Below, piece after piece: positions 11,936 to 16,363 of a DNA stretch of 64,000 nt. Made by a program: the position numbers and the translations under genes. The notes beneath the pieces were generated by a model. It did not search any database. It was not told where the DNA came from and saw nothing but the letters and a program-made list of their open reading frames with translations. The stretch's first letter is position 1, and every line of letters begins with the position of its first letter. The stretch is from positions 1 to 64,000 of the forward strand of contig OMIX01000093.1 of NCBI GenBank assembly GCA_900299195.1. The letters are read 5' to 3'. The DNA is from Deltaproteobacteria bacterium. Lineage in GTDB: Bacteria > Bdellovibrionota > FAC87 > UBA2466.

Positions 11936-12469
11936 TTAAAAGTAAAGAAGAGCTCCTAAACCTGCATAAGTTCCATTGGCTAAACTTGGAAGTTTAAACA
12001 ATGCCAAAATTTCAGCGTAGAGCGAGACTCCGCTAGGATGAAGATATTGAACGCCCAAAGCAGGATAGAGCATCCAAACATTAAACCCATCTGAAAAGTC
12101 ATTACCCGAAAGAAATTTATTCTTGAGCACACTGGGCCCGACGTTGGTTTCACGGGTACCGTCCGTCCACCAACGAGCGACACCTCCCCCAATGTAAGGG
12201 CTCACTCTCTCCCCAAGCAGGAAGTATTTTCCTTTTAGAGTAAACGTGGAGTAATCAAGGCCGGTCCCAAGACCGCCGCTCATAGAAAATTCCTCGTTTA
12301 CATTGATGTCGATTTCCAATCCCAGAACAGAAAGGGGACCCGCTGCAGTCACTCCGATCCCAAATCTCTTTTTCATTTTTAATTCTTCAAAAGTTTCGTT
12401 CGAGAAACCAAGGCTCCCCACAATTAAAATCAGACCCAATAGAATTCGTTTCAAATGTGATGTCACCAT
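11936..12469 (-). CDS. Putative outer-membrane beta-barrel protein adjacent to Mla locus
   Basis: Signal peptide, alternating beta pattern ending ...YAGLGALLYF; GGAGGT RBS before ATG 12469. Confidence 0.65.
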   Translation of the reverse strand: MVTSHLKRILLGLILIVGSLGFSNETFEELKMKKRFGIGVTAAGPLSVLGLEIDINVNEEFSMSGGLGTGLDYSTFTLKGKYFLLGERVSPYIGGGVARWWTDGTRETNVGPSVLKNKFLSGNDFSDGFNVWMLYPALGVQYLHPSGVSLYAEILALFKLPSLANGTYAGLGALLYF

Positions 12470-12492: not shown

Positions 12493-13278
12493 TTAAAAAA
12501 TTCGAGCCCGAATGCCTTCTTCTTGGAGAAACTGTTTTATGACTGGCTTATCTATTTTATGGGCTCTATCCACTAACTCATAAATTTGATCATAAAATTT
12601 TTGGGTTTCAGGATTTTTTATTTTGCTTGAGAGATCATGCATGTCGGAAGTCACTGCATTTAAATTGTCGATTAGTGTGATCAACTTTTGTCTCTCTCTT
12701 CCTTTTAGCAATTTATTGGCATCTGCAATGAGCTCTTTCATTCCTCCTAAAAACTCGGTCAGAGTTTTTTCATTTTCATCCATAAAATCCATAATTCTTC
12801 CAAAGACTCCATAACCTTGGGAAAGCAATTGATCAATTCGGGGAGGATCAACTCCTCTAAGAACAGCGCCATTCTGAACCACAGGAGAATTGGAACTGCC
12901 TGGACTGATTTCGATGTATTTCTCCCCGATAATACCGGCCATGTTCACATAGAACCTAGAATCTTGACGAACGGACGGTACCGCCTTATTTGAGACATCG
13001 ATCGTTAATTTCAAGGTCACTCGGTCCTGATTCGTTTCCGCTGTTTCTGGAAGAAATTCGATTTTAGAAACTTTGCCTACTTTTACGCCGGAGACACGGA
13101 CAGGAGACCCCACCTCAATGCCCCCTGCAAAATTGTAGAGCACGTAAAATCGTGAATGGCTTTGCAGAGGTCCTATAGCGCCCATGACCCAACCAAAAAT
13201 AATCAATAGGACAACGACCAAACAAAATAAGATCCCTACCCAAAATTCTTTCGGTAATCCTTTCCCATTTGAAGGCAT
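12493..13278 (-). CDS. mlaD: MCE/MlaD-family lipid-transport substrate-binding protein
   Basis: TM then MCE domain YNFAGGIEVGSPVRVSGVKVGKVSKIEF. Confidence 0.92.
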   Translation of the reverse strand: MPSNGKGLPKEFWVGILFCLVVVLLIIFGWVMGAIGPLQSHSRFYVLYNFAGGIEVGSPVRVSGVKVGKVSKIEFLPETAETNQDRVTLKLTIDVSNKAVPSVRQDSRFYVNMAGIIGEKYIEISPGSSNSPVVQNGAVLRGVDPPRIDQLLSQGYGVFGRIMDFMDENEKTLTEFLGGMKELIADANKLLKGRERQKLITLIDNLNAVTSDMHDLSSKIKNPETQKFYDQIYELVDRAHKIDKPVIKQFLQEEGIRARIF

Positions 13279-13368
13279 AGTAATAGCCGCTTTCTAAGTT
13301 GAGTTACGAGTTGTTAAGGATATTTAATTAAAAGGAAATTTCAGAGCCAAGTCAGACTCTTAGAATTA

Positions 13369-14055
13369 TTATATCGCGTAGAATAAATAGGTTAAAACGA
13401 AATCCGCAACAATGATGGCGAGACTGGATCTAACGACCGCCTGGGTCGCAGCTTCACCCACTGCGGCACTGCCGGTTCCACATCGGAATCCCTGATACGA
13501 TGCAATAAATGGGATCAGCGTTCCAAAAACAGCGGCTTTCAAAAGACACCGAATGACGTCCGGAAACTTCACAAAAAAGAAAACCGTATTGAAATATTCA
13601 CCTGAACTCGTTCCCAATTTTTGAATCGCTAGAAGTGCCCCGCCCCAAAGAGAAACGGCTATGGCCACAACCGTCAGCGAAATAGCCGCAAACACAGATC
13701 CGACCCACCTCGGAACCACTAAGTAATCAAAAGGGTCGATAGAAAGCATTTTGAGTGCATCTAGTTGTTCCGTCACTTTCATAGTCCCGATTTCCGCCGC
13801 AATTCCAGCCCCAATTCTTGAGGTTAATAGTAAACAGGTGATGACTGGACCTAACTCTCTCACCATCAAGACGGCTGAAAAGGCTGGAACTAAAGCGTCG
13901 TGTTTTAAAACTAAACGCATATGAAATGCCAATTCTAAAATCATCATCAGGCCGACAAATCCCAACGAGATAAAAACAATCGGTAAACTCTGAACCCCTA
14001 AAAAGTACATTTGCTCTAGAGCTTCGTGAATTCTTAATCGAAATCTTTTTCTCAT
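13369..14055 (-). CDS. MlaE-family permease (copy 1)
   Basis: VRELGPVITCLLLTSRIGAGIAAEIGTMKVTEQLDALKMLSIDPFDYLVVPR is the MlaE signature. Confidence 0.93.
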   Translation of the reverse strand: MRKRFRLRIHEALEQMYFLGVQSLPIVFISLGFVGLMMILELAFHMRLVLKHDALVPAFSAVLMVRELGPVITCLLLTSRIGAGIAAEIGTMKVTEQLDALKMLSIDPFDYLVVPRWVGSVFAAISLTVVAIAVSLWGGALLAIQKLGTSSGEYFNTVFFFVKFPDVIRCLLKAAVFGTLIPFIASYQGFRCGTGSAAVGEAATQAVVRSSLAIIVADFVLTYLFYAI

Positions 14056-14058
14056 AGG

Positions 14059-14835
14059 TTAGAGATACCCCACTTGAAATAGTTCCTGTAAGAGACTTGA
14101 AATCATTGACAAAAAGAAATCGGTAAAAATGATCAAAATCAAATTGGTAACGGCGCAGCTTTGAACTGCTGTTCCAACTCCGACGGCTCCGCCCCTAGCT
14201 GTGTAGCCTTTATAACAAGAAACAATCGCAATCAGAGTTCCAAAAACAAAGCTCTTAACCACGCTTAGTACGATACTCCATCCCGTGACAATTCTAGGAA
14301 TGTTCTGAATATAGCTTAAAGCATTCACACCGATGAATTGAGAAAACAATACCCCTCCTAAAATAGTGACCATCAATCCAACAATGAGAAGTAGAAAACT
14401 CGAAATAATAACTGCCCAGATTCTAGGCAAAATGATGTACTCCACCGGATCTGCCCCCAACAATCGAATCGCATTGAGTTGCTCTGTTACTTCCATCGTT
14501 CCGAGTTCCGCTGAAGTATAAGCCCCAACCTTCCCCGAGAGTAAAAAAGCGATAAGAACCGGTCCTACATTTCTTAAAGTCGTGGAAGTTGAAAGTCCTC
14601 CCAAAAAAGACTCAGCACCAAAATCTTTGAGCTGAACATCGATTTGAAGAGCCATGATAGCGCCGACAAACATCCCTGCTATTAGAGTCATTCCCAGAGA
14701 CTTCACTCCCACTTGAAAAATTTGATCGATGACAAATCCCCAACGCGTTTTGCCCTGAAAAGTTAACTTGATCCACTTTTCGGCTAGTAAAATCATCCCG
14801 CCTAAGGTCTTTGTGAGATTTAAAATATATTCCAT
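14059..14835 (-). CDS. MlaE-family permease (copy 2)
   Basis: LRNVGPVLIAFLLSGKVGAYTSAELGTMEVTEQLNAIRLLGADPVEYIILPR. Confidence 0.93.
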   Translation of the reverse strand: MEYILNLTKTLGGMILLAEKWIKLTFQGKTRWGFVIDQIFQVGVKSLGMTLIAGMFVGAIMALQIDVQLKDFGAESFLGGLSTSTTLRNVGPVLIAFLLSGKVGAYTSAELGTMEVTEQLNAIRLLGADPVEYIILPRIWAVIISSFLLLIVGLMVTILGGVLFSQFIGVNALSYIQNIPRIVTGWSIVLSVVKSFVFGTLIAIVSCYKGYTARGGAVGVGTAVQSCAVTNLILIIFTDFFLSMISSLLQELFQVGYL

Positions 14836-15566
14836 TAAAACATTTCCTCTTGAAACTGCTTCGCCAAGGAGGCCGTTGAAGTCTTAAATTTTTCAGCAGA
14901 TCCCTCAAAAACGATTTGCCCCTGGTCCAATAAAATCATCCGGTCCCCAACCGCGAAAGCACTTTTAATATCGTGTGAAACCACCACTGTAGTGACTTTG
15001 AGCTCTTGACTTAATTTTTTAATTAAATGATTTAAACCCGTGGTTGCGATGGGATCCATTCCTGTCGTTGGCTCGTCGAACAATAGGTAATCCGGTTCTA
15101 CTGCTAACGTGCGCGCGATACTCACCCTTTTTTGAGTACTAAAACTCAACTCAGTGGGAAATTTTCCTAATACTTTCTCATTAAGACCTACGAGGGAGAG
15201 TTTTTCTCTTACTTTGGCTTCAATTTCGCTGGGGTTCACAGAAATTTCTCGGGCTCGGATTCCAAAGCTAATATTTTCAAACACACTGACCGAATCTAAC
15301 AAAGCGGGAAACTGAAAAACTAACCCACATTTTTTTCTTATCTGGGCTAGAGTTTGTGAATTCTCCGCATCCACTTTTAGTCCAGCCACATGAATTTCAC
15401 CTGATTCTGGACTGTTCAATCCTACCATCAATTTAAGCAAGACCGACTTTCCCACGCCAGACTTCCCCAGAACAAAAACACACTCTCCAGGCGCCACTTG
15501 CATCGTAATTTGATTAAGAACTCTTCGTTCTCCAAATGACTTACTCACTTGCTTGACTGAGATCAT
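14835..15566 (-). CDS. MlaF-like ABC ATPase with degenerate signature motif
   Basis: Walker A GKSGVGKS; signature LSFSTQKR (not LSGGx); Walker B LLFDEPTTGMDP; H-loop VVVSHD. Confidence 0.92.
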   Translation of the reverse strand: MISVKQVSKSFGERRVLNQITMQVAPGECVFVLGKSGVGKSVLLKLMVGLNSPESGEIHVAGLKVDAENSQTLAQIRKKCGLVFQFPALLDSVSVFENISFGIRAREISVNPSEIEAKVREKLSLVGLNEKVLGKFPTELSFSTQKRVSIARTLAVEPDYLLFDEPTTGMDPIATTGLNHLIKKLSQELKVTTVVVSHDIKSAFAVGDRMILLDQGQIVFEGSAEKFKTSTASLAKQFQEEMF

Positions 15567-16363
15567 AAATCATCCACCGCTGAAAGGGGGCCTTCTGAAA
15601 GCCCTCGAGTAAATTGGTAGATCACAGGGTGATTAGAGTTAAGTAAATCCGAAACTGTAGATACTTGGAGCAGTTGCCCCTCAAAAAGGAACCCTATCTT
15701 GGCAGAAGTCTTACGACTGACTTGAAGTGCAAGATCTAAATCACTAGTGGCAATGAGAGTCGCGTTGTTTTTTTCTTTCTGCACCTGAATGATCAGGTCG
15801 ATGATGTGGCGTGAAGTCACTGGATCTAATCCTGCTGTAGGATCGTCATATAAGATAACCTCGGGCTGTAACACTAGGGCTCGGGCAATGCCTAATCGTT
15901 TTTGCATCCCTCCACTGATCTCATAAGGAAATTTCGATTCGCTTTCAAAAATTTCTACTTGATGGAGAGCTTTCCGAGCCAAATCCAGGCATTGCTGATT
16001 AGAGAGGTGGGTCAATTCTTTTAAAGGGAATGTAAGATTTTCTAAAACGGACAGAGAATCGAACAGACCACTGCGTTGAAAAGTCATAGCCACTCTCTGA
16101 AGCACAATTCTTCGCTCTCTCCTGGAAAGCTGGTTCAACGGAGCTCCTTGAAAGAAGACTTCGCCTGACTGAGGAATGAGGATGCCAGCCAGAACCTTAA
16201 GTAGAGTGGTTTTACCCATTCCACTTGGCCCCACAAGAAAAAACACCTCGGAACGGTTTAGAGAAATACTTAAGTGATGGATCACAGATTTTGACGCGCC
16301 CGAAAAAGTAAAAGACAAATCCTTAGCGCTTAGAACTTCATTTTCGTTTACACCGATCCCCAT
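15563..16363 (-). CDS. MlaF-like ABC ATPase with degenerate Walker B/H-loop
   Basis: Walker A GPSGMGKT; signature ISGGMQKR; Walker B VILYDDPTAGLDP (E to D); H-loop position IATSDLD (H to S). Confidence 0.92.
   Translation of the reverse strand: MGIGVNENEVLSAKDLSFTFSGASKSVIHHLSISLNRSEVFFLVGPSGMGKTTLLKVLAGILIPQSGEVFFQGAPLNQLSRRERRIVLQRVAMTFQRSGLFDSLSVLENLTFPLKELTHLSNQQCLDLARKALHQVEIFESESKFPYEISGGMQKRLGIARALVLQPEVILYDDPTAGLDPVTSRHIIDLIIQVQKEKNNATLIATSDLDLALQVSRKTSAKIGFLFEGQLLQVSTVSDLLNSNHPVIYQFTRGLSEGPLSAVDDL

Follow-up and report, generated by a model that had tools for sequence, protein, structure and literature searches.

A putatively asymmetric MCE-type transporter of Bdellovibrionota with two non-identical, complementary MlaF-type ATPases

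Here, we describe a five-gene cluster from a deltaproteobacterium of the phylum Bdellovibrionota (GenBank assembly GCA_900299195.1), located in the first 64,000 nucleotides of contig OMIX01000093.1, a stretch that is called the window in the following. The closely spaced genes lie on the minus strand (16363-12493) and encode, in this order, two MlaF-type ATPases (A and B), two MlaE permeases (E1 and E2) and one MCE protein (M). This gene content was already given in a preliminary description of the DNA and is borne out by the open reading frames and by Pfam (Table 1). Probably the five products form an MCE-type (MlaFED-like) inner-membrane transporter, in which an A-B ATPase heterodimer would sit under an E1-E2 permease heterodimer topped by a ring of M, and in which one ATP site would be of consensus type and the other one degenerate.

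When ABC ATPases dimerise, each bound ATP is enclosed by both partners: one contributes the Walker A and B motifs, the Q-loop and the H-loop, its counterpart the signature and the D-loop. ATPase A contains the signature ISGGMQKR, the Walker B motif YDDPTAGLD and the H-loop IATSDLD, and the corresponding motifs of ATPase B are LSFSTQKR, FDEPTTGMD and VVSHD. Aligned with E. coli MlaF, which served as control (LSGGM, FDEP, SHD), the two proteins are substituted at the signature glycine, the Walker B glutamate and the H-loop histidine. The motif readings of the preliminary description, as well as the positions it assigned to them, agree with this alignment. The double signature change LSFST occurs, among the pairs examined, only in the window's own genome; most B orthologs have LS[YF]GMQ.

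A search with M across 290 genomes of Bdellovibrionota returned about 130 strong matches (E < 1e-30), none of which came from f10 or the large family f9, and 11-12 kb (or as far as the contig reached) were taken around the best of them. At nearly all fetched loci the order A-B-E1-E2-M is the same. The fetched contigs include those of Bdellovibrio bacteriovorus (NZ_CP102930.1; G241) and of a metagenome-assembled genome of Bacteriovorax stolpii (G069). Both the H-loop histidine of A and the third-position glycine of the B signature are lost in 81 of 83 A+B pairs from 55 genera, and the SGG of A together with the glutamate and the histidine of B is kept in all 83. The two exceptions are one locus in which A retains its histidine (L123) and one in which the B signature is unreadable (L114). 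According to the preliminary description, its proposal would be refuted if orthologous loci had two ATPases that are both canonical; not one of the 83 pairs is of this kind. The third signature residue of B (n=88) is Y in 75 proteins, F in 11, H in one and unreadable in one, never G. One correction concerns A: loss of the switch histidine is general (83/84), but the exchange of the Walker B glutamate for aspartate is not universal (60 D, 24 E, n=84).

Because the orthologs have diverged substantially (35-63% identity to the window's protein for A, 44-67% for B), the complementary pattern has been maintained over long times. Its conservation follows the two composite sites. Site 1 would be formed by Walker A, the glutamate and the histidine of B together with the signature and D-loop of A, and site 2 by Walker A, the aspartate and the serine of A together with the altered signature of B. 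The half-sites of site 1 are kept: column entropy is 0.00 bits each at signature position 3 and the D-loop of A and at the catalytic and H-loop positions of B. Those of site 2 are relaxed, with 0.86 bits at the catalytic and 0.93 at the H-loop position of A, 0.64 at signature position 3 of B and 0.15 at its D-loop. Besides its signature and D-loop, also the Walker A lysine and the Q-loop of A are near-invariant. Since Walker A, the Q-loop and the Walker B aspartate are retained, A probably still binds ATP.

A phylogeny of linked ATPase pairs, which the preliminary description had proposed, places A and B each in a clade of its own, with the substitutions conserved across relatives. In quick trees with support from the Shimodaira-Hasegawa-like approximate likelihood ratio test (SH-aLRT) the separate clades are supported by 92 (A), 98 (B), 98 (E1) and 97 (E2), so that A, B, E1 and E2 present themselves as four orthologous clades. 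When E. coli LivF and LivG are used as outgroup, A and B cluster with E. coli MlaF and with the local MlaF paralogs, apart from LivF/LivG. A and B are thus of MlaF type, but strictly speaking they are not orthologs of MlaF, since their scores (141 for A, 161 for B) are well below the NCBIfam equivalog cut-off for MlaF (441). Where these genomes also encode canonical MlaF paralogs that have a permease of their own, every readable motif is of the regular kind (LSGG, DEP and either THD or SHD). The window's genome itself contains a second, ordinary MCE locus (contig C25, L006) with a single ATPase having LSGGM, DEP and THD. The genes of A and B are at most 60 bp apart in 73 of the 83 loci. In two genomes in which A is not located beside B (G194, G264) an A ortholog was found on another contig (E 6e-107 and 6e-94), in both cases with DDP and TND. 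A further genome has a second, unlinked A-type ATPase in addition to its existing A-B pair (L305, G082 C23:128376-129125), with THS in the H-loop.

We propose that site 1, which is canonical, would perform all or nearly all hydrolysis and that site 2 would bind ATP with little or no hydrolysis. The model for this is the heterodimeric exporter TM287/288. There, ATP stays tightly bound and unhydrolysed at the degenerate site, which also keeps the nucleotide-binding domains (NBDs) in contact, and most or all of the hydrolysis is done by the consensus site (PMC5216877). By this analogy site 2 would hold both ATPases together between strokes and one ATP would be hydrolysed per A-B cycle. The ring of M is assumed to be hexameric as is that of MlaD. 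The A-B heterodimer was already put forward in the preliminary description and gains support from the complementary losses in 81/83 pairs, from the kept half-sites of site 1 and from the separate clades of E1 and E2. The data show directly the operon, the motifs, the orthology and the conservation; the pairing itself, the inactivity of site 2 and lipid as the substrate are what we infer from the sequences.

Some observations weigh against this proposal or narrow it. The gap between A and B exceeds 60 bp in 10 of the 83 loci, and 1 kb in five of those. As all 83 pairs share ancestry, the pattern is probably one inherited event, so that the maintenance of a single event is documented and not 83 independent ones. 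The catalytic glutamate is retained in 24/84 A proteins, and in two A copies, L123 and the additional L305, a histidine lies in or close to the switch position. Finally, Cloacimonadota possess an MlaF-type ATPase with LSFGMQ(KR), DEP and SHD that adjoins an MCE gene (L180 4821-5540; L201 5682-6398); no A-like partner was found for it, and MlaE is encoded elsewhere in the genome. The signature change of B may hence be tolerated in a homodimer and is by itself no proof of heterodimerisation. What speaks for a heterodimer is therefore the joint occurrence of losses in A and in B, along with what A has kept.

The Cloacimonadota ATPase, which seems to act without an A-like partner, together with the mere presence of two ATPases and two permeases, would also suit two homodimeric transporters (A2 with one permease and B2 with the other) that share one MCE protein. 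This arrangement is very unlikely in our opinion: A2 would be devoid of the switch histidine at both sites in 83/84 A proteins and B2 of the signature glycine at both sites, there would be little reason for A to preserve an invariant signature and D-loop if these were not in use, each quartet has a single MCE gene, and the canonical MlaF paralogs have kept all motifs. There is similarly little to be said for A being a decaying regulatory or structural ATPase that contributes little, with B working as a homodimer or with any partner. Although the sequence of A has changed faster than that of B (mean entropy 1.82 vs 1.37) and varies at its catalytic positions, such decay fits badly with the near-invariance of its Walker A lysine, Q-loop, signature and D-loop, with the retention of an A ortholog even when unlinked, and with the fact that B alone would be wanting a canonical signature. 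A further possibility keeps the same A-B pairing, and is thus a sub-case of the proposed heterodimer, but lets both sites hydrolyse usefully, the substitutions only tuning the speed. It can point to the A proteins that have kept glutamate and to the LivG-type signature LAYGD in an otherwise ordinary importer; it is nevertheless rather unlikely in view of the general loss of the switch histidine in A and of the Walker B aspartate site of TM287/288, which makes no measurable contribution to hydrolysis (PMC5216877).

A possible second asymmetry of the proposed A-B heterodimer concerns the C-terminus. In the MlaF dimer of E. coli each subunit wraps its C-terminal extension around the other one, a mutual handshake (PMC7367683). 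ATPase A of the window has a short MlaF-like C-terminal extension with the motif F..G..GP, and 64 of 88 A proteins, but none of 91 B proteins, have this extension-start motif. If the extension works as in MlaF, A would reach onto B and not the reverse. This is suggestive only, because the canonical MlaF encoded on contig C25 is also without the motif.

The genes of A and B overlap by 4 bp and those of B and E1 by 1 bp. Both permeases and M score far above the Pfam cut-offs (22.5 bits for PF02405 and 25.1 bits for PF02470), and among solved structures E1 is closest to MlaE chains. Structure prediction gives M one transmembrane helix (10-35), followed by a confident strand-rich MCE domain and a helical tail, the monomer model being poor beyond the MCE domain. 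The C-terminus of M (12493-12540; FLQEEGI..R.F) and the stretch DPPRIDQLISQ after the MCE domain are among its best-conserved parts, and both are kept also in loci without the barrel gene described below.

Table 1. Genes and diagnostic ATPase residues of the transporter cluster and its downstream neighbours in the window
Feature	Position	Strand	Basis or conservation
ATPase A, MlaF-type, 266 aa	15563..16363	-	Open reading frame, Pfam ABC_tran, motif reading
ATPase B, MlaF-type, 243 aa	14835..15566	-	Open reading frame, Pfam ABC_tran, motif reading
MlaE permease E1, 258 aa	14059..14835	-	PF02405, 210 bits; own clade, support 98
MlaE permease E2, 228 aa	13369..14055	-	PF02405, 220 bits; own clade, support 97
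MCE protein M, 261 aa	12493..13278	-	MlaD/MCE domain PF02470, 62.9 bits
A residues 149-156, ISGGMQKR, canonical ABC signature	15896..15919	-	SGG in 84/84 orthologs
A Asp174, replacing the Walker B catalytic Glu	15842..15844	-	Orthologs 60 D, 24 E
A Ser207, replacing the H-loop switch His	15743..15745	-	Orthologs 68 N, 12 S, 2 T, 1 G, 1 H
B Phe142, replacing the first Gly of LSGGx	15141..15143	-	Orthologs 75 Y, 11 F, 1 H, never G
B Glu165, Walker B catalytic Glu	15072..15074	-	88/88 orthologs
B His198, H-loop switch His	14973..14975	-	88/88 orthologs
OmpA-like barrel gene, 177 aa, signal peptide and predicted 8 strands, terminal Phe	11936..12469	-	AlphaFold2, Foldseek
Probable sensor histidine kinase, 652 aa	9974..11932	-	Starts 3 bp after barrel gene

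Just downstream of M, with a likely ATG at 12469, follows a gene that was missing in the preliminary description. Its AlphaFold2 model consists of a signal helix and eight strands (mean predicted local distance difference test score 77), and the best solved matches in Foldseek are the barrels of OprF and OmpA (best E 7e-6, TM-score ~0.5). Outer-membrane barrels usually end in phenylalanine, as this predicted protein does. Of the fetched loci 55 contain a homolog, which almost always follows M at a distance of no more than ~150 bp; in two loci (L097, L098) the distance is ~2.1 kb. Since a barrel gene is absent from this place in many loci, above all in families f8 and f12, the barrel is not an obligate part of the system. 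Speculatively, the adjacent OmpA-like barrel could be the outer-membrane partner of the transporter. Kinase homologs follow the barrel in all nine other examined loci of the window's family and order. A wider view, which we offer as a tentative and rather doubtful extension, is that of a lineage-wide MCE class, comprising much of Bdellovibrionota and a small GTDB phylum, with obligate A-B and E1-E2 heterodimers, one silent site and lipid exchange via M with a dedicated OmpA-like barrel.

This small, separate GTDB phylum is that of RBG_13_61_14, where the A-B-E1-E2 set with DDP, SN and LS[YF]GMQ was found in two of three genomes (L209/L270). The range outside Bdellovibrionota was determined by a pattern scan of genome contigs ([YF]G..QKR, then 16 residues, then DEPT) and is to be taken as a lower bound. 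The matches listed included many unrelated ABC ATPases, mainly Chloroflexi sequences with LSFGQQK, and these were set aside where no MlaE or MCE gene was adjacent. An apparent spread to Myxococcota (L248) and Lysobacteraceae (L221) was rejected as well, the A/B motif strings being the same as those of two loci of the window's phylum (L088 of G078 and L119 of G037). The same applies to "bacterium CG_2015" (L204), whose A-B locus has the same coordinates as in genome G020 of the window's phylum. Once these three are discounted, L209/L270 are the only loci left outside the phylum among the matches listed.

The solved MCE transporters considered here, MlaFEDB and mycobacterial Mce1, have identical ATPases and are symmetric at the ATPase level (for Mce1 see PMC9882608). 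The preliminary description was not aware of any MCE transporter with an asymmetry of this kind, and in the open-access literature searched, Bdellovibrio MlaE and MCE included, we likewise found no paper on MCE transporters with non-identical, degenerate or heterodimeric ATPases. An Mla machinery is reported to have been retained by Bdellovibrio (PMC12228718), with no mention of asymmetry in the passages concerned. How the power stroke moves lipids in MCE transporters is unsettled, and a naturally asymmetric version, encoded also in Bdellovibrio bacteriovorus, separates both ATP sites genetically and would make their roles accessible by point mutation.

With E. coli MlaFEDB, a type VIII ABC transporter of the MCE family, the system has in common the MlaE permease family, the MlaF-type ATPase and a membrane-anchored protein with a single MCE domain, and A keeps the start of the C-terminal extension. 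The E. coli complex differs by its homodimers of MlaF and MlaE, its canonical sites and its composition MlaF2E2D6B2 including MlaB, whereas here ATPases and permeases are non-identical. The operon has no mlaC gene and no mlaB/STAS gene, a genome-wide STAS search not having been made. MlaA (PF04333) was not found in the window's genome (assembly ~97% complete), and one MlaC-family match (PF05494) is located on another contig (L301, G000 C76:9407-9835). Instead of the identical ATPases with two canonical sites seen in characterised MCE members there are two different ATPases with, as judged from their motifs, complementary defects. The family is, however, defined by permease and MCE homology, and identical ATPases are a trait of those members that have been characterised. 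Mycobacterial Mce1 is similar in having two different permeases; its YrbE1A-YrbE1B heterodimer is combined with an MceG homodimer (PMC9882608) and its MCE ring consists of six non-identical proteins, whereas here the ATPases differ as well and there is one MCE gene.

The preliminary description had named TAP1/2, TmrAB and BmrCD as precedents, and the complementarity of motifs is indeed shared with degenerate-site exporters (TM287/288, BmrCD, TmrAB, TAP, CFTR), in which one NBD has altered catalytic residues and its partner an altered signature, resulting in one consensus and one degenerate site. In TM287/288 it is also an aspartate that occupies the Walker B position of the degenerate-site NBD (PMC5216877). 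These exporters have the type IV fold with transmembrane domain and NBD in one chain, unlike the MlaE-type permeases and separate ATPases described here. The transporter would thus work like degenerate-site exporters without being one of them by descent, because its permeases belong to the MlaE family.

A close precedent outside the exporters, which the preliminary description did not name, is the pair LivF/LivG of E. coli (L137 3225-4707). LivF has SGGEQ and VEQN (histidine to glutamine) with DEP kept, and LivG has LAYGDQ (signature glycine to tyrosine) and IEHD; we found no paper on this degeneracy in the open-access literature searched. The same complementarity is combined with separate ATPase and permease subunits and with two different permeases (LivH, LivM), but the system is a type I importer of branched-chain amino acids with another permease family and other substrates, and LivF keeps DEP. 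In the tree with LivF and LivG as outgroup, these two pair up (97) opposite A, B and the MlaF-type ATPases (97). As LivF groups with LivG and neither of them with A or B, the complementary pattern probably arose independently in both pairs. Nor would degenerate sites be confined to exporters: the importer pair LivF/LivG and the present MCE system show the same complementary losses. This suggests that such losses can arise repeatedly once two ATPases come from different genes.

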